From Gemmatimonadota bacterium (lineage in GTDB: Bacteria; Gemmatimonadota; Gemmatimonadetes; Gemmatimonadales; Gemmatimonadaceae), in assembly GCA_028287305.1 (NCBI GenBank), contig JAQBPX010000012.1, positions 1 to 64,000 of the forward strand: a DNA stretch of 64,000 bases, written 5' to 3'. Position 1 is the stretch's first letter. The number at the start of each line of letters is the position of its first letter. Both the position numbers and the translations under genes were made by a program. Shown one piece after another: positions 42,852-58,049 of this stretch. Under the pieces are notes generated by a model. It was not told where the DNA came from. It did not search any database and saw only the letters and a list, made by a program, of their open reading frames with translations.

Positions 42852-42882
42852 GGTCAACAGTTCACATGGAACCAATGACAAA

Positions 42883-42918
42883 GGCGGGCGCCCACAGGCG
42901 CCCGCCTTCGTCGTCATT
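42883..42918 (+). terminator. GC-rich hairpin with TTCGTCGTCATT tail
   Basis: GGCGGGCGCC (42883-42892) pairs perfectly with GGCGCCCGCC (42897-42906) around CACA, followed by TTCGTCGTCATTG. This is a second terminator in the same gap. It is symmetrical, so it may also stop minus-strand transcription coming from the small gene at 42974-43093. Confidence 0.7.
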
Positions 42919-42973
42919 GCTCGAGCCCACGGGCCCACGGGCCTACAGGCCTGTCGTTTTCTCGACCGTCAGG

Positions 42974-43093
42974 CTAGAAAAAAAACCACCACAGCACCCC
43001 CATCTCCACCGTCGCCATCACGATTCCAAACACGATCGCCCGCCTCATGTCGCGCTGGCCCTTCCGCTCCGCCTCCCGCAACTCGTCATCCAT
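42974..43093 (-). CDS. Candidate 39-residue single-pass membrane protein
   Basis: A short open frame on the minus strand, divergent from the hybrid kinase with 18 bases between starts. The predicted peptide has a charged N-terminus (MDDELREAERKGQRDMRRA) followed by one hydrophobic segment of about 20 residues (IVFGIVMATVEMGVLWWFFF), ending at the stop. The charge pattern and uninterrupted helix look like a genuine small membrane protein, and third codon positions are mostly G/C as in neighbours until the Phe-rich end. No clear ribosome binding site is seen. It may act with the adjacent kinase, but that is only proximity. Confidence 0.5.
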   Translation of the reverse strand: MDDELREAERKGQRDMRRAIVFGIVMATVEMGVLWWFFF

Positions 43094-43111
43094 CACGATA
43101 TTGTGGGGCAC

Positions 43112-45352
43112 ATGCCCCTCTCCGTCCAGCGCAAGGTCCTCTTCGGCTTCGCCACCGCGCTCCTGATCCTCGCGGTGATCGGCGGCGCCTCGTGGCGCAG
43201 CCTCCGCTCCGCCTCGCGCAGCAGCGACTGGGTCGCCCACACCCACGAGGTGCTCGAGAGCCTCGCGGCGGTGCAGGGCAACGTCACCGACGCCGAGTCC
43301 GGCGAGCGTGCCTACCTCCTCACCGGCGACCGCGCCTTCCTCTCCGCCACGCGACTCGCCGGTCCCGCCCTCGACACGCGCCTCGCGCACATCGAGGAGA
43401 TCGTCACCGACAATCCGTCCCAGGCGCTCCGCGCCCGCGCGCTCCGCCAGCTCGTCCACGCGCACCTCGACAGCCTCCTCGCCACCGCCGCGCTCCACGA
43501 CCGCGATCCCGCGCTCGCCTCGGCCCAGGTGCGCGCCGGCAACGGCCGGCGCGGCGACCAGCTGCGCGCGAGCATCTCGCGCATGATCGCCATCGAGCAC
43601 GGATTGCTCGAGGAGCGCAAGGAGACGCAGGCCTCCGACATCCGCATGGCGATGATCGTCATCGGCTTCGGCTTCTTCGTCGCCGCGCTCATCGCCCTGC
43701 TCGCCACCGTCACGGTCGGCCGCGACATGCGCGAGCAGGATCGCCTCGAGCGCGAGTTGCGCGCCACCCTCGACCACGTGCGCGAGGCCGACCGCGCCAA
43801 GAGCGACTTCCTCGCCCGCATGAGTCACGAGCTGCGCACGCCGCTCAACAGCGTGATCGGCTTTGCGAACATCCTGCTCAAGCGCCGCGAGGGCCTCACC
43901 GAGAGGGACGCCGGCTTCGTCGAGCGTATCCGCGCCAACGGCACCTACCTGCTCGACCTGATCAACGACATCCTGGACCTCTCGAAGGTGGAGTCCGGGC
44001 GAATGGACCTGCTCAGCGAGAACGTGGACGTCGCCGCCCTGGTGCGCGACATCCTCGCCCAGTTCGGCGGGCGCCTCCACGAAGGCGTGCGCATCGAGAC
44101 CGACGTCCCCGCCGGGCTCCTCCCCCTCCGCACCGACGCGGCCAAGCTCAAGCAGATCGTCCTCAACCTCGTCGCCAACGCCGCCAAGTTCACCGAGCGC
44201 GGGCGGGTGCACGTCCGCGTGATTGCCGACCCCGAGTCGCACGCGGTGCTGCGCATCGACGTCGCCGACTCGGGGGTGGGGATCCCGGCCGATCGCATTC
44301 GCGCGGTGTTCCAGGCCTTCGAGCAGGCCGAGATGTCCACGGCGCGCCGCTTCGGCGGCACGGGACTGGGCCTCACCATCGCGCGGTCGCTCGCCGATCG
44401 CCTCGGCTTCCGCCTCACGGTCGCGAGCACCGCCGGCGTGGGCTCGACGTTCAGCATCCTGACCGCGCCGCACGCCGTGGCGCTCGTGCAGCACGAGGCG
44501 GTCACCGCGCGCGACGCCGCCGGCGAGGCCACCCGCGACGCGGCCGCCACCGCGCGCAGCGACCCGCCCGGCCCGCCCGCGCCTCCGTCCGTGTCGGGCG
44601 ACGATCCCGACGGGCCACTCGTGCTCGTGGTGGACGACAGCGCCGACGCGCGCTTCCTGCTCACGCAGTACCTGGTGGAGGACGGCTGCCGCGTGATCAA
44701 CGCCTCGAGCGGGGAGGAGGCGCTGCAACTCGCGCTCGACCTCGCGCCGGAGCTGATCACGCTCGACCTCATGATGCCCGGCATGGACGGCATCGAGGTA
44801 CTGCGCCGGCTCAAGTCGCACCCCACCTCGGCGCGCATCCCGGTGATCGTCATCTCGATCGTCGGATCCGAGCAGGACGGAGGCATCCTCGGCGCAGTGG
44901 ACGTGGTGGACAAGCCGATCGACCGCGAGGAGCTCGCGGCCGCCGTGCGGCGCAACCTCGCGCGCGAGGGCGCCCGCGTCCTCATCGTGGAGGACACCAC
45001 CGATTCACGGGAGGTGATTCGCTCCTACCTCAGCGACTTCCCCAACATCGAGCTGCGCACCGTGGCCAGTGGGCGCGAGGCCCTCGCGCTGCTCGAGGCC
45101 TTCCACCCCGACCTGCTGCTGCTCGACCTGCTGATGCCCGAGATGGACGGCGCCACCTTCCTCGCGCACCTTCGCGCCGACCGACGCTTCGAGCACGTGC
45201 CCGTGATCATCGTCACGGGCAAGGACCTTGCACCCACTGAGCGTCGCGCGCTCGAGCGGGAGGCGCTCGCCGTGCTCGCCAAGGGGGCAGACATGGGTGG
45301 ACAGCTGCAGCGGATGGTCCGGGCGCTGCTGCGCCAGCGCAACACGGCGTGA
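43112..45352 (+). CDS. Hybrid sensor histidine kinase (CHASE3-like, HisKA, HATPase, two receivers)
   Basis: A 746-residue hybrid kinase. TM1 (~9-27), an extracytoplasmic CHASE3-like domain with GERAYLLTGDRAFLSATR, TM2 (~180-203), a coiled coil, HisKA with H-box FLARMSHELRTPLNSVIGFA, and HATPase_c (IVLNLVANAAKFTERG, DSGVGIPADRIRAVFQAFEQ, GGTGLGLTIARSLADRLG). Two receiver domains follow: REC1 (~500-615; VVDDSADARF, phospho-Asp in LITLDLMMPGMDG, Lys in VVDKPID) and REC2 (~620-740; IVEDTTDSRE, Asp in LLLLDLLMPEMDG, Lys in VLAKGAD). ATG 43112 is chosen because the upstream extension reads through the terminator region. The next gene overlaps by four bases. Confidence 0.92.
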   Translation: MPLSVQRKVLFGFATALLILAVIGGASWRSLRSASRSSDWVAHTHEVLESLAAVQGNVTDAESGERAYLLTGDRAFLSATRLAGPALDTRLAHIEEIVTDNPSQALRARALRQLVHAHLDSLLATAALHDRDPALASAQVRAGNGRRGDQLRASISRMIAIEHGLLEERKETQASDIRMAMIVIGFGFFVAALIALLATVTVGRDMREQDRLERELRATLDHVREADRAKSDFLARMSHELRTPLNSVIGFANILLKRREGLTERDAGFVERIRANGTYLLDLINDILDLSKVESGRMDLLSENVDVAALVRDILAQFGGRLHEGVRIETDVPAGLLPLRTDAAKLKQIVLNLVANAAKFTERGRVHVRVIADPESHAVLRIDVADSGVGIPADRIRAVFQAFEQAEMSTARRFGGTGLGLTIARSLADRLGFRLTVASTAGVGSTFSILTAPHAVALVQHEAVTARDAAGEATRDAAATARSDPPGPPAPPSVSGDDPDGPLVLVVDDSADARFLLTQYLVEDGCRVINASSGEEALQLALDLAPELITLDLMMPGMDGIEVLRRLKSHPTSARIPVIVISIVGSEQDGGILGAVDVVDKPIDREELAAAVRRNLAREGARVLIVEDTTDSREVIRSYLSDFPNIELRTVASGREALALLEAFHPDLLLLDLLMPEMDGATFLAHLRADRRFEHVPVIIVTGKDLAPTERRALEREALAVLAKGADMGGQLQRMVRALLRQRNTA

Positions 45353-46629
45353 GCACGCGCCTCGCGGCTTCGCGAGCCCGCGCTGCGTGTCTCGCTGCCG
45401 CCTGCGTCGCGCTCGCGCTGTTCACGCTGCAGGCATGCACCAGCGAGCTCGCGCCGCCGAGCGCGTATGTGGTCACCCTCGACGAGATCGGCTCCTCCGG
45501 CTGGCGCGACGTGAGCGTCGGCCGCGAGTTCACCTGCGCCCTCGACGTGGACGCGCGCGCATGGTGCTGGGGCCGCAACGCCGAGGGGCAGCTGGGCCAC
45601 CCCGCTGCCAGGGACTCCACCTGCGGCACGGAGCTCAATGCATTTCCCTGCGCGCGCCGCCCGGTGCCCGTGGAAACCACCCTCCGATTTCGCACACTGT
45701 CCACCGGTGCCACGCACGCCTGCGGCATCACGGTGAACGCCGCACTCGTCTGCTGGGGCTCCAACGGGAGCGGCCAGTTGGGCGCCACGGGCTTCCAGAA
45801 GGCCGAGCTGCCGATCACCATCGCGCTGCCCATCAGCGCCGTGAGCGCCGGCGCCACGCACACCTGCGCGCTCACCCTTTCCTCCGTGCTGCTCTGCTTC
45901 GGCAGCAACTCGCGCGGTGAGCTGGGCGACGGAACGGTCACGCCGAGCGCGACGCCCGTCTTCGTGCGCCTCGCCACCTCCTTCATCGCGGTCTCCGCGG
46001 GCGAGCAGCGCACCTGCGCGCTCGCCTCGCGCGGCACGGCCTTCTGCTGGGGCGCCATCTGGACGGAGCGACAGCAGGACTTCGAGTTCACGCGATCCGC
46101 CCTCCTGCCCGAGGAGGTACCGGGCGGCAACGTCTTCACCTCCATCTCCGTCTCCACGTACACCACCTGCGCGCGTGACGCCGGCTCCGCGCTCTGGTGC
46201 TGGGAGGCCAATCCTTATGGAGAGCTCGGCGACGGTACCACGGAGGGGAAGCGAGCGCCCACGCGGGTCGCGTCGCAGGAGCCATTCACCGGCGTGTCTG
46301 CGGGGGTGATCCAGACCTGCGCAGGTTCGAGCTCGGGCGGCGCCTTCTGCTGGGGAAGCGACGCCTTCGGCCAGCTCGGCGTGTTCGGCAATGCGCTCGG
46401 CGAGCGCTGCGGACCGCAGGAGATCGCCTGTGCCACGCGTCCCCTGCGCATTCCTGGTCGCGCGCAATTCACCCAGGCCAGCACCGGGCTGGGCAACCAC
46501 GCCTGCGCCATCACGAGTCGGTCGAACCTGTTCTGCTGGGGGCTGGGAAGCTCGGGACAGCGGGGCGATGGTCGCTCGGCCGACGTGATTGCAGTGCCCA
46601 CTCAGGTGGTCCGGCCAGCACCTTTGTGA
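45349..46629 (+). CDS. RCC1-repeat lipoprotein with seven Cys-x9-Cys blades
   Basis: A 426-residue exported lipoprotein (lipobox TLQAC) consisting of seven RCC1-type propeller blades. Every blade carries two cysteines with exactly nine residues between them: CALDVDARAWC, CGITVNAALVC, CALTLSSVLLC, CALASRGTAFC, CARDAGSALWC, CAGSSSGGAFC, CAITSRSNLFC, usually followed by WGxN/S. Blades 1 and 6 have an extra cysteine-bearing loop (CGTELNAFPCARRP, CGPQEIACATRP). It looks like a disulfide-stapled seven-bladed propeller outside the cytoplasm, perhaps for protein binding as in BLIP-II. Its GTG start overlaps the hybrid kinase stop, suggesting co-expression. Confidence 0.88.
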   Translation: MSTRLAASRARAACLAAACVALALFTLQACTSELAPPSAYVVTLDEIGSSGWRDVSVGREFTCALDVDARAWCWGRNAEGQLGHPAARDSTCGTELNAFPCARRPVPVETTLRFRTLSTGATHACGITVNAALVCWGSNGSGQLGATGFQKAELPITIALPISAVSAGATHTCALTLSSVLLCFGSNSRGELGDGTVTPSATPVFVRLATSFIAVSAGEQRTCALASRGTAFCWGAIWTERQQDFEFTRSALLPEEVPGGNVFTSISVSTYTTCARDAGSALWCWEANPYGELGDGTTEGKRAPTRVASQEPFTGVSAGVIQTCAGSSSGGAFCWGSDAFGQLGVFGNALGERCGPQEIACATRPLRIPGRAQFTQASTGLGNHACAITSRSNLFCWGLGSSGQRGDGRSADVIAVPTQVVRPAPL

Positions 46630-46912: not shown

Positions 46913-48985
46913 ATGCATTGGCTTGCACGAGCGGCAGCACGCGCACAGCTCAGGGGCTTCGAGTCCCTCAGTGTCCAGACCGACGTCCCCCTGGCTGAAG
47001 CCTGGGAGCTGACGTCTCGCACGTTGGGAATGAGTCCTCGTGAGCTCGCCGAGAAGCTCGCTCCCGCCTTCGGCCTCGGCGCCGCGAACCTCGAGCTCGC
47101 TGAGCCCCGCGCCCTCGTCCTCCTCCCCGAACGGCTCGCCCGCAAGTACTCGGCGTTCCCGCTTCGTGAGGATGACCGACACCTGGTGGTGGCCACCGCC
47201 GACCCGACCAACCTCGAAGTCGAGCACGCCATTGGCTTCGCCTCCGGACGTCGTCCGGTGCTCGAGCTCGCGTGCCCTGCCGACATCGACGAAGCCCTCT
47301 TCTCCGGCTATTCCGCCGACAAGGCCATGGAGACGCTGCTGAACAGCGTCGACAACAACGTGGCCGACGCCGTGCGCATCATGGAGGAGCTGGCCCCCGA
47401 GGTCGTCGACCAGAAGGAGGTCGAGACCGGCCCCGTCGTGAAGCTCACGAGCCTCATCCTCCGCGACGCGGTGGTGCAGGGCGCGAGCGACATCCACATC
47501 GAGCCCGGCCCCAAGGGCGGTGCCGTCCGCTTCCGTATCGACGGCGTGATGCGCCAGCACATGCATCTGCCGATGCCCGCGCTGAACCGCATCGTGTCGC
47601 GCCTCAAGGTGATGGGCAAGCTCGACATCGCCAATCGCATGGCCCCGCAGGATGGCCGCGCGAAGATCAACGTGGACGGTCGCCCCGTGGACCTCCGCCT
47701 CTCCACCGTGCCCACGCGCGATGCCGAGAAGGCCGTGATCCGCCTGCTGCGCCCCGAGAACGCGAAGCGGCTGGAGGAGATCGGCGTCACGCCGCGCGAA
47801 CTCGCGCGCTTCCGCCAGCTCATGGCCTGCCGCGACGGCATCGTGATCGTCACCGGGCCCACGGGCAGCGGCAAGACGACCACCCTGTACTCCGCCATCA
47901 AGGAGATCGCGACCGGCGACGTGAACGTCATGACGGTCGAGGATCCGGTCGAGTACGAGCTGGGCGGCATCACGCAGATCCAGGTGGACCCGAAGCGCGG
48001 CGTCACCTTCGCCAACTCGCTGCGCGCGCTGCTGCGCCAGGATCCCGACGTCATCTTCGTCGGAGAAATCCGCGACGCCGAGACGGCCCAGATCGCGGCG
48101 CAGGCCGCCATGACGGGTCACCTCGTGCTGGCCACGCTGCACACGAATGACGCGATGAGCGCCGTCACGCGCCTCGTGGACCTCGGCCTCGATCGCGCCA
48201 CGATCGCGGCCACGCTGCGGGGCATCGTCGCCCAGCGCCTGATTCGCAAGGTGTGCTCGGACTGCGCGCAGCCGCTCATCGGCTCGCTCACCGAGGAAGA
48301 GGAGCGCCTCTCCAAGAACTACGGCGTGCTGCCCCTCTCGCGCGCCGTCGGCTGCAAGCGCTGCGCGAACACCGGCTTCCGCGGCCGCCTGCCGCTGGCC
48401 GAGGTCGCGATCATCACGCCGATCCTGGCCGACCAGATCGCCGCCGGCGCGACCACGCTGGCGCTCACGCGCTCGGCGATCACGAACGGCATGGCCTCCC
48501 TGCGTGACGTCGCCATCGCGCGCGTCCGCCGCGGCGAGACCACGCTGGGTGAAGTGGAGCGCGTGCTGGGCGACGCGCTCGAGGATGCCGAGGTGTCCGA
48601 CGGTCCGCCGTCGATCCTCATCATCAACCACGACGCCACGTGGCGCCGCATGGCCCGCGCGACGCTCGAGGCGGGTGGCTTCCGCGTCACCGAGGCGCTG
48701 GATGGCGCCGAGGCGCTGAAGATGATCCAGGCCGGCAAGCAGTTCTCGCTGATGTTCACCGACGTCCCGCTCGACGGCGTGCTCGACGCGCCGACGCTCG
48801 GCCGCGTGGGTGCGCTGTCGCCGAGCACCACGGCGCCGATCGTGCCGATGATGCCCGACCTGCTGGAGCGCCAGCCGGTGTCGGCGGAGCAGGCACAGTT
48901 GCCCATGCAGATGTCGCGTCCGATGGCCGACTGGACCCGCTTCACCGCGAACGTCCAGGCAGGACTCAAGAAGGACCAGCATTAA
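46913..48985 (+). CDS. GspE/PilB-family secretion ATPase with degenerate C-terminal receiver domain
   Basis: A 690-residue type II secretion/type IV pilus assembly ATPase. An N-terminal T2SSE_N-like domain (~25-130) precedes the motor: Walker A GPTGSGKTTTLYSAI, Asp box VEDPVEY, Walker B DVIFVGEIRD, His box GHLVLATLHTNDAMS, and the zinc tetracysteine (CSDC...CKRC). After ~565 residues a receiver-like domain follows (SILIINHDATWRR...LMFTDVPLDG). It keeps the phospho-Asp position but has Asn-His in place of the acidic pair, lacks the Lys, and ends early. ATG 46913 matches the start of the paralogue downstream (both begin MHWL) and has AGGAG before it; GTG 46853 is less likely. Confidence 0.9.
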   Translation: MHWLARAAARAQLRGFESLSVQTDVPLAEAWELTSRTLGMSPRELAEKLAPAFGLGAANLELAEPRALVLLPERLARKYSAFPLREDDRHLVVATADPTNLEVEHAIGFASGRRPVLELACPADIDEALFSGYSADKAMETLLNSVDNNVADAVRIMEELAPEVVDQKEVETGPVVKLTSLILRDAVVQGASDIHIEPGPKGGAVRFRIDGVMRQHMHLPMPALNRIVSRLKVMGKLDIANRMAPQDGRAKINVDGRPVDLRLSTVPTRDAEKAVIRLLRPENAKRLEEIGVTPRELARFRQLMACRDGIVIVTGPTGSGKTTTLYSAIKEIATGDVNVMTVEDPVEYELGGITQIQVDPKRGVTFANSLRALLRQDPDVIFVGEIRDAETAQIAAQAAMTGHLVLATLHTNDAMSAVTRLVDLGLDRATIAATLRGIVAQRLIRKVCSDCAQPLIGSLTEEEERLSKNYGVLPLSRAVGCKRCANTGFRGRLPLAEVAIITPILADQIAAGATTLALTRSAITNGMASLRDVAIARVRRGETTLGEVERVLGDALEDAEVSDGPPSILIINHDATWRRMARATLEAGGFRVTEALDGAEALKMIQAGKQFSLMFTDVPLDGVLDAPTLGRVGALSPSTTAPIVPMMPDLLERQPVSAEQAQLPMQMSRPMADWTRFTANVQAGLKKDQH

Positions 48986-49306
48986 CTGACGGGGCTTCGG
49001 TAACAGCGAGGCTTGAGGCTTCGGGCTGGGGCTGCAGTCCTCGGGCTGAGGTAACTACGGCGTGGGGCCGCGGGCCCTGCAGTCGTCCTGAGCGAAGCGA
49101 GGGACCTGCCGTTGTAAAATCAAAGCTCCATGCGCCGACCGGGCGCATGGAGCTTTCTCATTCATACTCGCCATCCGCGCTCGTCCGCCCCGCCAACGGC
49201 GGTCCGTTCAATCCGAGGCATGCTGTTGACCGGCGCGACGGACCCAGCGTCACGCGCCGTCTCACTTTGCGCCGCACCGCGCCAGTCGCCTATCTTCACC
49301 GGCATC
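48986..49306. other. Non-coding gap between the two GspE-like genes
   Basis: No gene is seen. It holds short reiterated text (GAGGCTTGAGGCTTCGGGCT at about 49010), a copy of the widespread CCTGAGCGAAGCGAGGGACCT intergenic motif (about 49087-49107), and a strong hairpin at 49122-49156. The motif is recognised from memory as common in soil bacteria. Confidence 0.6.
49122..49156 (+). terminator. Perfect 15-bp hairpin
   Basis: AAAGCTCCATGCGCC (49122-49136) pairs perfectly with GGCGCATGGAGCTTT (49142-49156) around GACCG. The tail is CTCATTC. It separates the two ATPase genes into different transcription units. Confidence 0.75.
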
Positions 49307-51424
49307 ATGCACTGGCTGCTCATGGCTGCGCGCCGAGCCGGAATCCCTGGCGCCGACCTGCTCTCGATCCTGCCGAACACCCCGCTCAAGCAGGCGTGGA
49401 TCCAGGTCGAGGCGGCCAGCAAGCTCGAGACGGGCGAACTGGTCGAGCGACTCGCCACCGTGCTGCGCGTGCATCCCGCGCTCGTCGATCGCGCCGAGAA
49501 CAAGGCGCTCAAGCTCGTCCCCGAAAAGCTCGCGCGACGCTTCAGCGTGTTCCCCATGCGCGAGGACGATCGCAACCTCGTGGTCGCGACGGCCGACCCC
49601 AACAACCTCGATGCCGAGCAGGCGCTCTCCTTCGCATCCGGCCGCAACGTGGTGTTCGCGCTCGCGACGCCCTCGCAGATCGAGGATCGCATCGCCGGCG
49701 CCTACTCGCCCGACCTGGCGGTGGAGTCGCTCCTGCTGCGCATGGACGCGCAGCTCGCCGACGCGGTCGAGATCGTGGACGACAGCGCCCCGGAGCAGCT
49801 GCAGGCCGCCGAGCTGGAAAGCACGCCGGTGGTGCGCATCACGAACCTGGTGCTGCGCGAGGGCATCACCCAGGGCGCGAGCGACATCCACATCGAGCCG
49901 GGCATGGAAGGCGGCGTGGTCCGCTTCCGCATCGACGGCGTGATGCGCCAGCACATGCACCTGCCCATGCAGGCGCTCAATCGCATCGTGTCGCGCATCA
50001 AGGTGCTGACCAAGCTCGACATCGCCGACCGCCTGCGCCCGCAGGACGGCCGCACGCGCGTGGTGGTGGAGGGGAAGGCGTACGACCTGCGCATCTCGAC
50101 CATACCCACGCGCGACGCCGAGAAGGCGGTGATCCGCATCCTGCGCACCGACGGCGCGAAGACGCTTGCCGCGAGTGGCCTGCCCGCCACCGAGCTCGCG
50201 CGGCTGCGCCAGCTGCTCGGCATGCGCGACGGCATCGTGGCCGTCACGGGACCCACCGGCAGCGGCAAGACGACCACGCTCTACGCCGCGATCCGCGAGC
50301 TCGCGACCGGCGACGTGAACGTCATGACGGTGGAAGACCCGGTCGAGTACCAGCTCGCGGGTATCACGCAGATGCAGATCGACACGAAACGCAACGTGAC
50401 GTTCGCCTCGGCGCTCCGCGCGATCCTCCGGCAGGACCCCGACGTCATCTTCGTCGGCGAGATTCGCGACGACGAGACCGCGACCATCGCCGTGCAGGCC
50501 GCCATGACGGGTCACCTGGTGCTCGCCACGCTGCACACGAACGATTCGCTGGCGGTCGTTCCGCGCCTCGTCGACCTCGGCCTCGATCGCGCGACCATCG
50601 CGGCTGCGTTGCGCGGCGCGGTCGCGCAGCGGCTCATCCGCCGGCTCTGCGCCGAGTGCGCCGTGGCCGCCGAGGAGCCGCTCACGCCCGAGGAGCAGCG
50701 ACTCGCCAACGCATATCGCGTGCGCCCCAAGCTGCGCGCCGTCGGCTGCGCCAAGTGCGGCATGACCGGCTTCCGCGGGCGCGTGGCGGTGGCCGAGGTG
50801 GCGGTGATCACGCCCGCCATGGTGGAGCAGATCGCCGGCGAGGCCACCGTGGCGCAGCTGCGCAAGTCGGCGATCGCGGCCGGCATGCGCCCCATGCTCG
50901 AGGTCGCGCTCGATCGCGTGCGCGACGGCACCACCACGCTGGCCGAGGTGGAGCGGGTGATCGGCGAGGCGACCGCCGAGGGCACGCCCGAGACGCCGAT
51001 GTCCGTTCCCATCGTGCCGGCGTCCGAGGCGAGTGGAGAGCGCGGCCCGACGCGCATCCTGGTGGTGGACGACGACCCCGTCGCCCGTCGCCTCGCGAGC
51101 GCGGTGCTCGAGCTCAGTGGCTACACGGTGGAGACCGCCGCAGACGTCGCCGAGACGGAGCAGCGCCTCAGCCGCGGCGAGCCATATGACCTCATCATCA
51201 CCGACCTCGAGATGCCGGGGGGCGGCGGGCAGGTATTGCTCGCGAAGCTGCGCTCCAAGGTCTCCACGGCCGGCATCCCGGTCATCGTGCTCACCGGCGC
51301 CGCCGCCGACGAGACGGAGACCGTGCTGATCGAGGCCGGTGCCGACGACTACATTCGGAAGCCACTCGACCCGCCGCGCTTTCTCGCACGCGTCAAGGCG
51401 ACGCTGCGCCGCGCCGGTCTCTGA
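49307..51424 (+). CDS. GspE/PilB-family secretion ATPase with intact C-terminal receiver domain
   Basis: Paralogue of the preceding ATPase, 705 residues, with the same order: T2SSE_N-like domain, Walker A GPTGSGKTTTLYAAI, Asp box VEDPVEY, Walker B DVIFVGEIRD, His box GHLVLATLHTNDS and zinc tetracysteine (CAEC...CAKC). The C-terminal receiver (~585-705) is complete: acidic pocket VVDDDPVARR, phospho-Asp in LIITDLEMPGGGG, Thr in IVLTGAAADE and Lys in YIRKPLDPPRF. This suggests the motor or its assembly is controlled by phosphorylation. ATG 49307 matches the paralogue's N-terminus; the longer frame would start inside the terminator. HPt and receiver genes follow closely. Confidence 0.9.
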   Translation: MHWLLMAARRAGIPGADLLSILPNTPLKQAWIQVEAASKLETGELVERLATVLRVHPALVDRAENKALKLVPEKLARRFSVFPMREDDRNLVVATADPNNLDAEQALSFASGRNVVFALATPSQIEDRIAGAYSPDLAVESLLLRMDAQLADAVEIVDDSAPEQLQAAELESTPVVRITNLVLREGITQGASDIHIEPGMEGGVVRFRIDGVMRQHMHLPMQALNRIVSRIKVLTKLDIADRLRPQDGRTRVVVEGKAYDLRISTIPTRDAEKAVIRILRTDGAKTLAASGLPATELARLRQLLGMRDGIVAVTGPTGSGKTTTLYAAIRELATGDVNVMTVEDPVEYQLAGITQMQIDTKRNVTFASALRAILRQDPDVIFVGEIRDDETATIAVQAAMTGHLVLATLHTNDSLAVVPRLVDLGLDRATIAAALRGAVAQRLIRRLCAECAVAAEEPLTPEEQRLANAYRVRPKLRAVGCAKCGMTGFRGRVAVAEVAVITPAMVEQIAGEATVAQLRKSAIAAGMRPMLEVALDRVRDGTTTLAEVERVIGEATAEGTPETPMSVPIVPASEASGERGPTRILVVDDDPVARRLASAVLELSGYTVETAADVAETEQRLSRGEPYDLIITDLEMPGGGGQVLLAKLRSKVSTAGIPVIVLTGAAADETETVLIEAGADDYIRKPLDPPRFLARVKATLRRAGL

Positions 51425-51429
51425 CCCCC

Positions 51430-51798
51430 ATGTCCATGCCGAACGAGACCGAGATCGACGCCGCCGCCATCGAGCGCCTCCAGCGCTTCGGGGGCGGCAA
51501 GCTGCTGCGTGAGATGATCGCGCTGTTCATCGAGCATGCGCCCACGCGCGTGCAGGCGGCCCGCGCAGGAATGGATGCGGGCGACGCCGATGCCGTGCGC
51601 ATGGCGCTGCACTCGCTCAAGTCGAGCGCGGCCCAGCTGGGCGCGATGACACTGCAGGACGCCTGCGCGCGCGGCGAGGAGCTCGCGCGCGCCGGCTCGT
51701 TGACCGAGCTTCCCGCGGTCGTCGCGGAAGTGGAGCAGGAAAGCCCGCGCGTGCTCGCGCGGCTCGACGCCATTCGCCAGGAGAGTGCCGCCTCATGA
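51430..51798 (+). CDS. HPt (histidine phosphotransfer) domain protein
   Basis: A 122-residue single-domain phosphotransfer protein. The helical bundle carries the phospho-His motif MALHSLKSSAAQLGAMTLQD (His about residue 61, followed by the usual Lys and Ser-Ser). It starts five bases after the receiver-ATPase gene and overlaps the next receiver gene by four bases (ATGA). It can pass phosphoryl groups between a hybrid kinase and receivers; the hybrid kinase at 43112-45352 and the ATPase receiver are the nearest candidates, an inference from position. Confidence 0.93.
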   Translation: MSMPNETEIDAAAIERLQRFGGGKLLREMIALFIEHAPTRVQAARAGMDAGDADAVRMALHSLKSSAAQLGAMTLQDACARGEELARAGSLTELPAVVAEVEQESPRVLARLDAIRQESAAS

Positions 51799-52160
51799 AG
51801 ACCCTCGCAGTCGTGGAAGACAACGCCGACAACCGGCTGCTCCTCCAGGCGATCCTCGACGACCAGTACACGCTGGTCGAGTACGACAATGGCATCGATG
51901 CGCTGGCCGGCCTGTCGTCGAACAAGCCCGACCTGGTGTTGCTCGACATCTCGCTTCCCGGGATGGACGGCAACGAGATCCTCGTGCGCATCCGCGCCGA
52001 CGATCACCTCAAGGACCTGCCGGTGATTGCGCTCACCGCGCATGCGATGGCCGGCGATCGCGAGAAGTACCTCGCCGCGGGGTTCAACGACTACATCACC
52101 AAGCCGATCGTCGACGAGTCGCTCCTGCTCAGCGCCATCAGGCGCGGGCTGGGAGAGTAG
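51795..52160 (+). CDS. Single-domain response regulator (CheY/DivK-like)
   Basis: A 121-residue free-standing receiver with no output domain. All catalytic residues are present: VVEDNADNR, phospho-Asp in LVLLDISLPGMDG, Thr in IALTAHAM and Lys in YITKPIVDE. It overlaps the HPt gene by four bases and ends the ATPase-HPt-receiver operon; a terminator follows. It could serve as an intermediate carrier or phosphate sink in a phosphorelay. Confidence 0.94.
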   Translation: MKTLAVVEDNADNRLLLQAILDDQYTLVEYDNGIDALAGLSSNKPDLVLLDISLPGMDGNEILVRIRADDHLKDLPVIALTAHAMAGDREKYLAAGFNDYITKPIVDESLLLSAIRRGLGE

Positions 52161-52510: not shown

Positions 52511-55126
52511 CTAGCTTTCCCTCAAAGCTTCCATAGGAGTGCTCGCGAAAACCTCGCGACTGGTCAACAGCCCGATCACCGCCGAGAGCGTCATCATCGC
52601 CACCGCCACCACCGCTGCGGGCACGAGCGCCGGCGTGAATGGCGTGTCGAATACCCAGTGCATCAGCGCCCACGCGCCGCCTATCGAAAGCCCGACGCCC
52701 GCCAGCGCGCCCAGCGCACCGAGCAGCACGTACTCCGACAGCAGTATCCGCCCGATGTGACGTCGCGTTGCGCCGAGGACCTTCAGCAGCACGCCCTCGC
52801 GCAGCCGCGCTCGCCGCGTGGCACTCACCGCGCTGAACAGCACCGGGATCCCCAGCGTCAGGCTAAGGATCGCCATGAAGCGCACCGCCACCGTCACCTT
52901 GCCGAGCACGCTCTTCACGGTCTGCTGCACGCTCGTGAGGTCGAGGCTCGACACGTTCGGGAACTTCTGCACCACCGCGCGCTGCGCGAGCGCCACGGCG
53001 CGCGCGCCGGGGATATTCGCCAGGAACACGAACTGCTTCGGCGCGTGCGCGAGCGCCCGCGTCTGGAACACCACGAAGAAGTTGGGCTCGAAGCGCGCCC
53101 AGTTCACCTCGCGCGTGCTCGTGATGCGCGTCGGCACGCGCACGCCCTGGATGTCCCACGTCATCGAGTCGCCCACCACCACGCCGAGCTCACTCGCCAG
53201 GTCCTTCTCCACCGAAATCTGGGCGACGCCGCCGCTGTCGCTCGCCGTCCAGAACTTTCCGCTGGTCACCACCTCGCTGCCCACCGGCGTGTCGCGATAC
53301 GTGGACCGGAACTCGCGGCGCAGCGCCCATGGCGAGCGTCGCCCGCTCTGCGCGCCCGGCTTGCCCCGCTGCGGCAACTCTGCTCCAGAGTCCGGCGCAC
53401 TTGGCGCCAGTCCGCGCTCGCGCGCGCGCCCCGCGAGCATGGTGCTCACCAGCACGCCGTTGATCGAGTAGATGCGCATCGGGATGATCGGCACCTGCTG
53501 CGTCACCTGCACGCCGGGCAGCCCTCGCAGCAGCGAGTCCACTCCCGGCGCCTGCTTCTCCTGCACGTCCAGGAACACGGCGTTCGCCTGCGACTGCTCG
53601 AGCTTGATGTCGAACTGCTTCAGCAGGTTCTTCTGCACTTGGTAGAGGGTGCTCATCAGGAACACGCCGAAGCCGAGCGCCAGGATCACCGACCGCGTCT
53701 GGTTGCCCGGGCGGTGCAGCGCCGCGAGGCCCTGCCGCAGCACGAATGGCCAGCTCGGACGCACCACGCGCCGCGCCGCCCACGTGAGGAATGCCGCGGT
53801 GAGCCAGAGCACCCCGAGCGCGACGGCGATGCCGCCGCTGTAGGCGAAGCCACGCTGCGCGTTGTCGGCGCGCGAGAGGCCGAGTATGAGCACACTCGCC
53901 GCAATGCCGAGCGACACGATCAGCGAGGCTGGATCGCGACGCGCGCGTCGCATGACCTCCGCGTCGTTCTCGCGTCGCAGCGCCTGCAGCGGGCTCACGA
54001 GCCGCAGCGCGAGCAGCGGACGCAGCGCGAACGCGAGCGACACCCAGATCCCGATCGCCAGTCCGGTGAGCACCGCCGAGGGCACCACGCGGACGTCGAT
54101 GTCCACGGGCAGGAAGTCCTTGAGCACGCGCGGCAGCGAGAGCTGGATCGCGACGCCTAACATCGCGCCTACGCCCGCACCGATCAGCCCCATCGCGATC
54201 GCCTGCAGCACGTAGATCGTCAGCACCTGCCGGCTGGTGGCTCCCACGCACCGCAGGATCGCCACCACGTCGATCTTCCGCATCACGAACGCATGCACGC
54301 CGCTCGCCACGCCGATGCCGCCGAGCAGCAGCGCCACCAGCCCCACCACGCCGAGGAAGTCACGCATCTGCGTGATCGCCTGCGTCATGTCCATCTCGTT
54401 CTCGGTCACCGTGCGCAGCCGCACGCGATCGCTGCTCAGCCGCGGATTGAAGCGTCCCGCGAACCGCGCCGGCGAGAGCGTCGCCGGGAGCTTGATCAGC
54501 GCCTCGTACTCGGCGCGGCTCCCGAACACGAGCAGCCCCGTCTCGTCGAGGTACTTCTCTGGAATGAACACGCGCGGGCCGATGGCGGCCGAGATGCCTG
54601 CGTCGCCGGGCACGCTCTCGATCGTGCCCGTGATCAGGAAGCGCCCGGTGCCGAGCGACAGCGTGTCACCGATGTGCGCGTCGAGCGACACCAGCACTGC
54701 AGGGTCCACCACCGCGCGGCGATCGCCCTGGATGTCGGCGTAGGCCGACGCGGGCTTCGTCTCCACCGTGCCGTACCACGGATAGCCCGCGCTCACCGCG
54801 CGCACCTGCACCAGGCGCGTGCCGCTCGTGCGCGGCACCAGCGCCATGGAGCTGAAGCTCACCTGGCGAGACACGGGGATGCCGCTCGAGTTCAGCGAAT
54901 CGAGCAGCGCCGTCGGCTTCGGCTGGAACTTCTCGCGCGAGCGGAGGGATACGTCGCCCCCCAGCAGTGCGCGCGCCTGCTCGTGCACGCCCCGCGTGAG
55001 GTTCTCGGCGAAGGAGTCGATGGCCACCAGCGCGGCCACGCCGAAGAGGATGGCCGACATGTAGAGCAGCAGCCGGCGCCGCGCGGTGCGCGACTCGCGC
55101 CAGGCGAGCGAGAGGAGCTGGTTCAT
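52511..55126 (-). CDS. ybbP: ABC transporter permease, FtsX/YbbP-like
   Basis: An 871-residue permease with two FtsX-type halves: an N-terminal TM (~19-40), a large extracytoplasmic MacB-like domain, three TMs around ~270-390 (LLLGGIGVASGVHAFVMRKI, then GATSRQVLTIYVLQAIAMGL), further TMs around 420-500, a second periplasmic domain, and a final FtsX triplet (~745-865, VLLKVLGATRRHIGRILLSE). This matches E. coli YbbP. It overlaps the ATPase gene by four bases. The complex is thought to act in envelope lipid or lipoprotein handling, but its substrate is not settled. Confidence 0.9.
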   Translation of the reverse strand: MNQLLSLAWRESRTARRRLLLYMSAILFGVAALVAIDSFAENLTRGVHEQARALLGGDVSLRSREKFQPKPTALLDSLNSSGIPVSRQVSFSSMALVPRTSGTRLVQVRAVSAGYPWYGTVETKPASAYADIQGDRRAVVDPAVLVSLDAHIGDTLSLGTGRFLITGTIESVPGDAGISAAIGPRVFIPEKYLDETGLLVFGSRAEYEALIKLPATLSPARFAGRFNPRLSSDRVRLRTVTENEMDMTQAITQMRDFLGVVGLVALLLGGIGVASGVHAFVMRKIDVVAILRCVGATSRQVLTIYVLQAIAMGLIGAGVGAMLGVAIQLSLPRVLKDFLPVDIDVRVVPSAVLTGLAIGIWVSLAFALRPLLALRLVSPLQALRRENDAEVMRRARRDPASLIVSLGIAASVLILGLSRADNAQRGFAYSGGIAVALGVLWLTAAFLTWAARRVVRPSWPFVLRQGLAALHRPGNQTRSVILALGFGVFLMSTLYQVQKNLLKQFDIKLEQSQANAVFLDVQEKQAPGVDSLLRGLPGVQVTQQVPIIPMRIYSINGVLVSTMLAGRARERGLAPSAPDSGAELPQRGKPGAQSGRRSPWALRREFRSTYRDTPVGSEVVTSGKFWTASDSGGVAQISVEKDLASELGVVVGDSMTWDIQGVRVPTRITSTREVNWARFEPNFFVVFQTRALAHAPKQFVFLANIPGARAVALAQRAVVQKFPNVSSLDLTSVQQTVKSVLGKVTVAVRFMAILSLTLGIPVLFSAVSATRRARLREGVLLKVLGATRRHIGRILLSEYVLLGALGALAGVGLSIGGAWALMHWVFDTPFTPALVPAAVVAVAMMTLSAVIGLLTSREVFASTPMEALRES

Positions 55127-55797
55127 GCGGTGAGCCGGTCCTCGATCACCGCGCCGTCGGCCAGGCGGATCACGCGCTGGGTGCGCGCCGCCAGGGCGAG
55201 GTCGTGCGTGACGAGCACCACCGTGGAGCCCGACTCGCGATTGAGCTGCTCCAGCAACTCGACGATGCGCGAACCCGTGTCGCTGTCCAGATTTCCGGTG
55301 GGCTCATCGGCGAAGAGGATGCGCGGGTCGTTCGAGAAGGCCCGCGCGATGGCGACGCGCTGCTGCTCGCCGCCGGAGAGCTGGGTGGGGAAGTGGTGGC
55401 CGCGGTCCTTGAGCCCCACGCGCGCGAGCAGCTCGCGCGCGCGCTCGTCGGCTCCCTTGTCGCCGCGCAGCTCGAGTGGCACCTGCACGTTCTCCTGCGC
55501 CGTGAGGGTCGGGATCAGTTGAAAGCTCTGGAACACGAAGCCCACTTTCTCACCGCGCAGCCGCGCACGCTGGTCCTCGTCGAGCTTCGACAGGTCAGCG
55601 CCGTCGAGCACCACTCGGCCGCGGCTCGCCTCGTCCAGTCCGGCGAGGAGGCCGAGCAGGGTGGTCTTGCCGCTGCCCGATGGACCGACGATGGCGACGA
55701 AGGCGCCCTGGTCGATGGTGAACGACACGTCCTTCAGCACGGCGAGCGTGCGGTCGCCACTCCTGTATTCCTTCGTCAAACTTTCGGCGGTCAGCAT
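55123..55797 (-). CDS. ybbA: ABC transporter ATP-binding protein, YbbA/LolD-like
   Basis: A 224-residue ATPase with Walker A IVGPSGSGKTTLL, Q-loop FVFQSFQLIPTLTA, signature LSGGEQQRVAIARA, Walker B ILFADEPTGNLD and the switch His (LVTHDLAL). MacB/LolD-type subfamily features are clear. It energises the adjacent FtsX-like permease, with which it overlaps by four bases. Its start codon overlaps that of the divergent esterase gene by two bases, as described under findings. Confidence 0.95.
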   Translation of the reverse strand: MLTAESLTKEYRSGDRTLAVLKDVSFTIDQGAFVAIVGPSGSGKTTLLGLLAGLDEASRGRVVLDGADLSKLDEDQRARLRGEKVGFVFQSFQLIPTLTAQENVQVPLELRGDKGADERARELLARVGLKDRGHHFPTQLSGGEQQRVAIARAFSNDPRILFADEPTGNLDSDTGSRIVELLEQLNRESGSTVVLVTHDLALAARTQRVIRLADGAVIEDRLTA

Positions 55798-57240: not shown

Positions 57241-57315
57241 GGTGACTGTAGCTCAATTGGTTAGAGCACCGGTCTGTGGCACCGGGGGTTGCGGGTTCAA
57301 TCCCCGTCAGTCACC
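57241..57315 (+). tRNA. tRNA-His (GTG)
   Basis: Acceptor GTGACTG/CAGTCAC with an encoded extra 5' G (57241) opposite discriminator C, the tRNA-His identity pair. Anticodon stem CCGGT/ACCGG, loop CTGTGGC (GTG). First of seven tRNA genes following efp; CCA is not encoded. Confidence 0.97.
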
Positions 57316-57330
57316 CTAACCAGGCGGTCT

Positions 57331-57403
57331 AGGTCCGTAGCTCAATTGGTAGAGCACCGGTCTCCAAAACCGGCGGTTGGGGGTTCGATTCCCTCCGGGC
57401 CTG
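57331..57403 (+). tRNA. tRNA-Trp (CCA)
   Basis: Acceptor AGGTCCG/CGGGCCT, anticodon stem CCGGT/ACCGG with loop CTCCAAA (CCA), T arm GGGGG-TTCGATT-CCCTC. 15 bases after tRNA-His, so probably on one transcript. Confidence 0.97.
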
Positions 57404-57476
57404 TCACGCCGAACGAAGCGTTGGTTCAGCGGCTGTTTGACAATCGAAAGTGACGTTGTACGCAGGAATATCCGTT

Positions 57477-57549
57477 GGCGGTATCGTCTAGGGGACTAGG
57501 ACACGGCCCTCTCAAGGCTGGAACACGGGTTCGAATCCCGTTACCGCTA
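57477..57549 (+). tRNA. tRNA-Glu (CTC)
   Basis: Acceptor GGCGGTA/TACCGCT, anticodon stem CGGCC/GGCTG with loop CTCTCAA (CTC), T arm ACGGG-TTCGAAT-CCCGT. A TTGACA at 57437-57442 with TACGCA 16 bases later may be its own promoter. Confidence 0.95.
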
Positions 57550-57567
57550 TGTCAAAGGAAGCATCGT

Positions 57568-57639
57568 GGCTCGTTCGTCTATCGGTTAGGACGGCACCCT
57601 TTCACGGTGCAGAGACGGGTTCGACTCCCGTACGGGCTA
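57568..57639 (+). tRNA. tRNA-Glu (TTC)
   Basis: Acceptor GGCTCGT/ACGGGCT, anticodon stem GCACC/GGTGC with loop CTTTCAC (TTC), T arm ACGGG-TTCGACT-CCCGT. Second Glu isoacceptor, 18 bases after the first. Confidence 0.96.
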
Positions 57640-57705
57640 TCCCCATCTCGTTACGGGATCTCTCGCCGCTCGCCGGAACGCAGTTCGCTGTACGCAGTGT
57701 TGCAT

Positions 57706-57779
57706 GGGGCCGTAGCTCAGCTGGTTAGAGCACTCGACTGTCACTCGAGAGGTCGCGGGTTCGAACCCCGTCGGCCCCG
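57706..57779 (+). tRNA. tRNA-Asp (GTC)
   Basis: Acceptor GGGGCCG/CGGCCCC, anticodon stem CTCGA/TCGAG with loop CTGTCAC (GTC), T arm GCGGG-TTCGAAC-CCCGT, discriminator G. Confidence 0.97.
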
Positions 57780-57811
57780 CTGGATTTTGCAGTACGCACC
57801 AAACGTGTGTT

Positions 57812-57893
57812 GCCCTGGTGGTGAAATTGGTAGACACGCCATCTTGAGGGGGTGGTGCCGCAAGGCGTCGCGGTTCGAGTCCGCGTCAGGGCA
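57812..57893 (+). tRNA. tRNA-Leu (GAG)
   Basis: Class II tRNA: acceptor GCCCTGG/TCAGGGC, anticodon stem CCATC/GGTGG with loop TTGAGGG (GAG), long variable arm (TGCCGCAAGGCGT), T arm GCGG-TTCGAGT-CCGC, discriminator A. Confidence 0.96.
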
Positions 57894-57921
57894 TGGAGAT
57901 TCAATGGCGTTCCCTCAACGC

Positions 57922-57993
57922 GCCACAGTAGCTCAGGGGTAGAGCACTCGATTCGTAATCGAGCGGTCGTGGGTTCAATTCCCACCTGTGGCT
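57922..57993 (+). tRNA. tRNA-Thr (CGT)
   Basis: Acceptor GCCACAG/CTGTGGC, anticodon stem CTCGA/TCGAG with loop TTCGTAA (CGT), T arm GTGGG-TTCAATT-CCCAC, discriminator T. Last gene of the cluster; a terminator follows 77 bases later. Confidence 0.97.
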
Positions 57994-58049
57994 CTTTCGT
58001 TCGATGTGCGAGTCATCGGTCAACGTCACCTTCGGTTGCGCACGACAAG

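Follow-up and report, generated by a model that had tools for sequence, protein, structure and literature searches.

Can the ATPase of a pilus or secretion motor itself be the end point of a phosphorelay? The question is raised by a group of genes in the window, the whole 64,000-nucleotide stretch of Gemmatimonadota DNA analyzed here. The controls known for pilus and secretion motors are c-di-GMP and separate motor-binding REC proteins. The first-pass annotation instead described two adjacent GspE/PilB-type ATPases, each with a C-terminal receiver, and proposed that a phosphorelay is wired to the motor. All of the genes that it named were found on the + strand where it had placed them, within a six-gene cassette that runs kinase, RCC1 lipoprotein, ATP1, ATP2, HPt and REC (Table 1).

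Table 1 Features of the cassette, in window coordinates
Feature	Coordinates	Strand	Basis
Hybrid histidine kinase, CHASE3-HisKA-HATPase_c-REC-REC	42866..45352	+	Pfam; HisKA His is residue 321
RCC1-repeat protein, lipobox-like N-terminus (LQAC)	45349..46629	+	Pfam; lipobox read by eye
ATP1: MshEN C-lobe, GspE/PilB-type ATPase, pseudo-REC	46913..48985 (ATG 46913)	+	Pfam, motifs
ATP2: MshEN C-lobe, GspE/PilB-type ATPase, flexible linker, intact receiver	49307..51424	+	Pfam, motifs, model
Single-domain HPt, phospho-acceptor His61	51430..51798	+	Pfam 54 bits
Single-domain REC, phospho-residues all intact	51795..52160	+	Pfam 91 bits

The cassette contains, in one gene group, every part of a multistep HK-REC-HPt-REC relay: a HisKA-HATPase-REC kinase, an HPt with its histidine and a terminal REC. 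The kinase, whose true start is possibly 43103 or 43112, has the two receivers attributed to it and ends 1.56 kb before the ATG of ATP1, close to the 1.6 kb first estimated. This gap is filled by the RCC1 gene, which shares 4 bp with the kinase gene and encodes a lipoprotein that could be a secreted partner or a ligand sensor. The HPt and free REC had been annotated as following in overlapping genes, with the phospho-histidine of the HPt near residue 61; the histidine is indeed residue 61, and the HPt and REC genes overlap by 4 bp, whereas the HPt gene itself begins 5 bp past ATP2. Gaps of ~280 bp between RCC1 and ATP1 and ~320 bp between ATP1 and ATP2 mean that two or more transcription units are possible; scans for promoters and terminators returned nothing above chance. 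The most likely start of ATP2 is 49307, inside a longest open reading frame that opens at 49130: the alignments with homologues begin at residue 60 of that frame, and with this start both ATPases begin MHWL. Convergent on the cassette are ABC permease and ATPase genes (52511-55797, - strand), the permease keeping its position in L045, L076 and L078, and seven tRNA genes are clustered at 57242-57994 (His, Trp, Glu, Glu, Asp, Leu, Thr).

Both ATPases have the Pfam score, motifs and fold of the GspE/PilB superfamily. ATP1 matched T2SSE (PF00437) at 411.6 bits and MshEN (PF05157) at 54 bits, ATP2 matched them at 383.4 and 63 bits, and Walker A, Walker B, the His box and the four cysteines of two CxxC pairs were intact in each. 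The AlphaFold model of ATP2 (mean pLDDT 85) showed an MshEN-like region at the N-terminus, then the ATPase, a disordered linker (residues 555-578) and a complete receiver, and its Foldseek matches were GspE and PilB, with GspE at rank 1. By curated tests, however, the proteins are neither PilB nor GspE: ATP1 and ATP2 scored 470.5 and 449.1 bits against the PilB equivalog TIGR02538 (cut-off 675.65), which the host genome's own PilB1 passes at 686.7 bits, and 493.8 and 481.8 bits, the best NCBIfam score for both, against the GspE equivalog TIGR02533 (cut-off 630.25). Compared with PilB of type IVa pili (5TSG, 5ZFR, 3JC8), the ATPase core is ~41-42% identical in structure alignment and all catalytic motifs and the MshEN C-lobe are present, but ATP1 and ATP2 bear a C-terminal receiver and lie outside any pil operon. 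They differ from GspE of type II secretion (4PHT, 4KSR) likewise in the receiver, and no gsp genes were found nearby. Since neither protein passes a curated PilB or GspE cut-off, a role as pilus motor is argued from homology and context. As members of the superfamily, they most likely work like PilB or GspE under direct phosphorelay control.

The two receivers proved to be unequal. That of ATP2 (Response_reg, 88 bits) has the acidic pair, phospho-Asp, Thr/Ser and Lys, the complete set with which it had been credited. In contrast, the C-terminal domain of ATP1 scored 27.8 bits, under the Pfam cut-off of 30.2, and reads NHDMR at CheY positions 12/13/57/87/109, which is not the residue set of a receiver. 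The ATP1 model had fair confidence for the first half of the receiver only, the second half being unfolded. The ATP1 domain is thus a decayed half-domain, or pseudo-REC, and the tandem has functionally one receiver rather than the two described. The closest orthologues of ATP1, the cassette ATPases of genus g6 (L076, L078), also have decayed receivers (D57 to E). Across the family the phospho-residues are intact in 64 of 70 ATPase-REC receivers.

The ATPase-REC architecture is not peculiar to this genome. Of 298 genomes drawn from the phylum, at least 45, by a hand count among the matches listed, hold a protein whose alignment to ATP2 extends into the receiver, and most of the less similar matches that were fetched also bear a receiver. 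Full-length ATPase-RECs occur outside the phylum in Desulfobacteraceae, another Desulfobacterales bacterium, a deltaproteobacterial MAG and an Omnitrophota MAG, so that the database check first suggested for such architectures returned them from across the phylum, Desulfobacterota and Omnitrophota. A tree of 79 ATPase cores resolved three well-supported phylum clades: W, the window's clade (40 rows including L084); E, adjoining EPSP synthase, cytidylate kinase and S1-domain genes; and N, adjoining NUDIX genes. ATP1 is sister to the g6 cassette ATPase (support 100/100) and ATP2 branches outside this group, and the tandem is therefore not a very recent duplication. A 47%-identity group thought to be without REC was rejected as such, as most of its fetched members are ATPase-RECs with a NUDIX gene behind them. 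Clade N loci mostly have a free NUDIX gene directly 3' of the ATPase-REC gene, and ATPase-NUDIX fusions occur at C4:89421-91634 (L042:8422-10635, P0001; 422 and 67 bits) and in L196; a Nudix hydrolase is thereby connected with a motor of pilus type. In family f5 (L053, L054, L055, L073, L178, L182) the ATPase-REC gene is directly upstream of secD, followed by secF wherever the contig extends that far.

Binding of c-di-GMP by MshEN domains involves two 24-residue motifs (PMC5013675), and we scanned for a relaxed form of this motif. The PF05157 match in ATP1 and ATP2 covers the C-terminal lobe of MshEN. The motif was absent from both proteins and from all 69 members of clades W, E and N, whereas two copies were found in the host's PilB1 and in four of the five ATPase-RECs from outside the phylum. 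NF053729 likewise matched PilB1 and did not match ATP1. As far as sequence can show, the motif's absence from all 69 members against two copies in PilB1 argues that the phylum's three clades lost c-di-GMP binding, while the outside relatives appear to keep both inputs. The first-pass view that this system is distinct from the MshEN route therefore survives for the c-di-GMP motif and fails for the domain, as the MshEN lobe itself is present in both ATPases. An association of REC with MshEN in other proteins is reported in the same article (PMC5013675).

We compared the surroundings of 36 clade W loci with those of 168 control genes from the same contigs. At 26 of the 36 loci and 11 of the 168 controls, a gene for a kinase, receiver, HPt or GGDEF protein lay on the same strand within 1 kb, and an HPt domain was nearby at 17 and 2, respectively (Fisher p ~2e-16 and 5e-13, with related genomes not fully independent). 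A free REC is present in 9/10 clade E loci and in none of 17 clade N loci. The arrangements recur in several forms. As in the window, the HPt gene is directly 3' of the ATPase gene in L045, L047, L067, L076 and L078, and in each of these an orthologue of the free REC adjoins it (82% identity in L045). An HPt lies just 5' of the ATPase gene in L048 and L049, a REC-GGDEF gene overlaps the ATPase gene by 4 bp in six loci (L050, L055, L073, L074, L176, L181), and Desulfobacterota loci L086 and L087 have the order HPt, REC-GGDEF, ATPase-REC. The two g6 loci have kinase homologues in identical gene order, with the RCC1 gene again between kinase and ATPase, and keep the whole series kinase, RCC1, ATPase, HPt, REC and convergent ABC permease around a single receiver-decayed ATPase. 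In eight further loci (L046, L056, L058, L077, L079, L177, L183, L084) a fused HK-REC-REC-HPt kinase overlaps or touches the ATPase gene; by the domain-fusion argument, the window's separate HK-REC-REC and HPt would therefore form one relay. Together, the conserved partners, fused kinases and 64 of 70 intact receivers lend strong comparative support to the proposal of a phosphorelay predicted to act on a GspE/PilB-type motor.

What the motor would assemble was sought in the rest of the host genome and in relatives. No prepilin, platform gene or prepilin peptidase was found on the window's contig (C8), in agreement with the first-pass annotation, although relatives do have prepilins adjoining the ATPase and the host has a candidate pair on contig C4. 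The genome has one PilC-type T2SSF gene (C4:673.7-674.7 kb), one prepilin peptidase, several extension-type ATPases and 11 N-termini that score as prepilin-like above the curated cut-off; two more T2SSF matches, side by side on contig C24, are probably a Tad pair. In 12 related genomes, 2-4 GspE/PilB-type ATPases accompany mostly one PilC-type gene. Two distinct pilB genes are cut by the ends of contigs C1 and C4, the second followed by pilT and pilC, and are probably a tandem pair split by assembly. With 81% DNA identity over 798 bases, PilB1 and the C4-end ATPase are two PilBs and not, as first considered, the halves of a single gene.

Most clade W loci have no platform or pilin gene alongside. 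A prepilin is nevertheless directly beside ATPase-REC members in families f2 and f5 and in Desulfobacterota. It is directly upstream in L057 and L205 of clade W, and lies 3' together with a bitopic protein in L087 and L088. Clade E loci L066 and L187 have the order ATPase-REC, REC, bitopic protein, prepilin, and L065 is alike without a called free REC. The clade E and clade W prepilins align along their length (alignment A1), and the bitopic proteins have in common a TM segment and a periplasmic part that resembles a pilin (alignment A2). Profiles built from these alignments found one adjacent pair in the host genome, at C4:6644-7626 with a 4 bp overlap, which answers the suggestion that pilin genes be located elsewhere. 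The bitopic protein occurred in 25/40 genomes with a clade W or E ATPase-REC (18/33 without the profile-building genomes) and in 1/40 with PilB only; by genus the figures were 18/29 and 1/20, and the counts are not independent of phylogeny. The idea that it is exclusive to clades W and E was weakened by its presence in 10/30 genomes chosen for clade N. Co-occurrence thus connects the ATPase-REC group with a filament but does not point to one clade as its driver. The pair is unlinked to the window's cassette, and the bitopic protein, given its presence in those clade N genomes, may belong to another motor.

We considered whether the cluster could be a chance pile-up of unrelated genes. Two-component genes are common, lying within 1 kb of 6.5% of control genes, but gene order and overlaps recur across many genera and outside the phylum, and with the enrichments given above this reading is refuted at the level of association and carries practically no weight. 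A different concern is that the ATPase receiver serves mainly as a localization or dimerization tag, with the free REC as output of the relay and catalysis not directly regulated. The flexible linker in the ATP2 model and the free REC that accompanies HPt in the window's subclade would fit this, as would the g6 loci, which retain HPt and free REC although the relay there cannot end on the ATPase, the cassette's only ATPase having a decayed receiver. There is also the precedent of the cyanobacterial PATAN-REC protein PixE, which binds PilB1 and redirects movement (PMC7690835); the parallel is that a protein with a receiver acts on a PilB motor, but PixE is separate from that motor, whereas the REC here is within the ATPase polypeptide. 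However, most ATPase receivers keep the five phospho-residues, and in L046, L056, L177 and L183 no free REC touches the ATPase gene, leaving the ATPase receiver as the obvious target in cis. We regard the tag as unlikely, if a serious contender.

It could also be that the ATPase-REC is no longer a filament motor and that its hexamer, unconnected with PilC and pilins, is an ATP-driven signalling output that, for example, remodels or sequesters another protein. Retention of Walker A and B, His box and tetracysteine motifs speaks against such a change of role, as do the prepilins beside f2, f5 and Desulfobacterota members and the co-occurrence with a pilin-like bitopic protein. What makes it conceivable is the absence of platform and pilin genes beside most clade W loci, the several ATPases per single PilC-type platform, the tie and even fusion of clade N to NUDIX, and the position of these ATPases outside the curated PilB and GspE families. 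On balance we consider this quite improbable.

We favor, with a probability of roughly 60%, the interpretation that ATP2 is an extension ATPase of the PilB/GspE kind, gated by the phosphorelay and using the general pilus platform jointly with other ATPases. We infer a phosphotransfer route from the membrane CHASE3 hybrid kinase through its own REC(s) to His61 of HPt and on to the ATP2 receiver, phosphorylation of which would set ATPase activity or platform docking. The free REC may compete for phosphate as a sink or provide a second output, and ATP1, a paralogue, may be an uncontrolled partner, mixing into hexamers or constitutive. The ATP2 motor would share the single PilC-type platform of the cell with the housekeeping PilBs and would assemble a dedicated prepilin, probably with the C4 prepilin and bitopic pair as its substrate. 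In these clades the receiver would replace c-di-GMP control, whereas the ordinary PilB, PilB1, keeps the MshEN motif. More tentatively, and at a little short of even odds, we propose a widespread family of type IV filament motors whose extension ATPase doubles as the last response regulator of a His-Asp phosphorelay. In such motors the receiver would take the place of MshEN-based c-di-GMP control, and a dedicated prepilin/bitopic pair would be assembled with a borrowed PilC platform.

We found no description of a PilB or GspE with a C-terminal receiver in the open-access literature, nor of the fusion as a standard pilus motor, the case in which the first-pass annotation expected its proposal to fall. 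MshE, PilB and GspE under c-di-GMP control share the MshEN region with the proteins described here but not the loss of its motif. In the Pil-Chp system of Pseudomonas type IV pili, separate REC proteins (PilG/PilH) steer extension under a CheA-type kinase; here a HisKA hybrid kinase and HPt relay is paired with a REC on the motor itself. With the receiver in the motor's own chain and the relay genes adjacent, phosphorylation control would be directly measurable with purified proteins, and the family is a large natural set for defining the role of the C-terminal domain, which is intact, decayed or replaced by NUDIX. The findings suggest that several differently regulated extension ATPases may serve one platform, and that phosphorylation may act in cells as a direct switch on a surface-filament motor.
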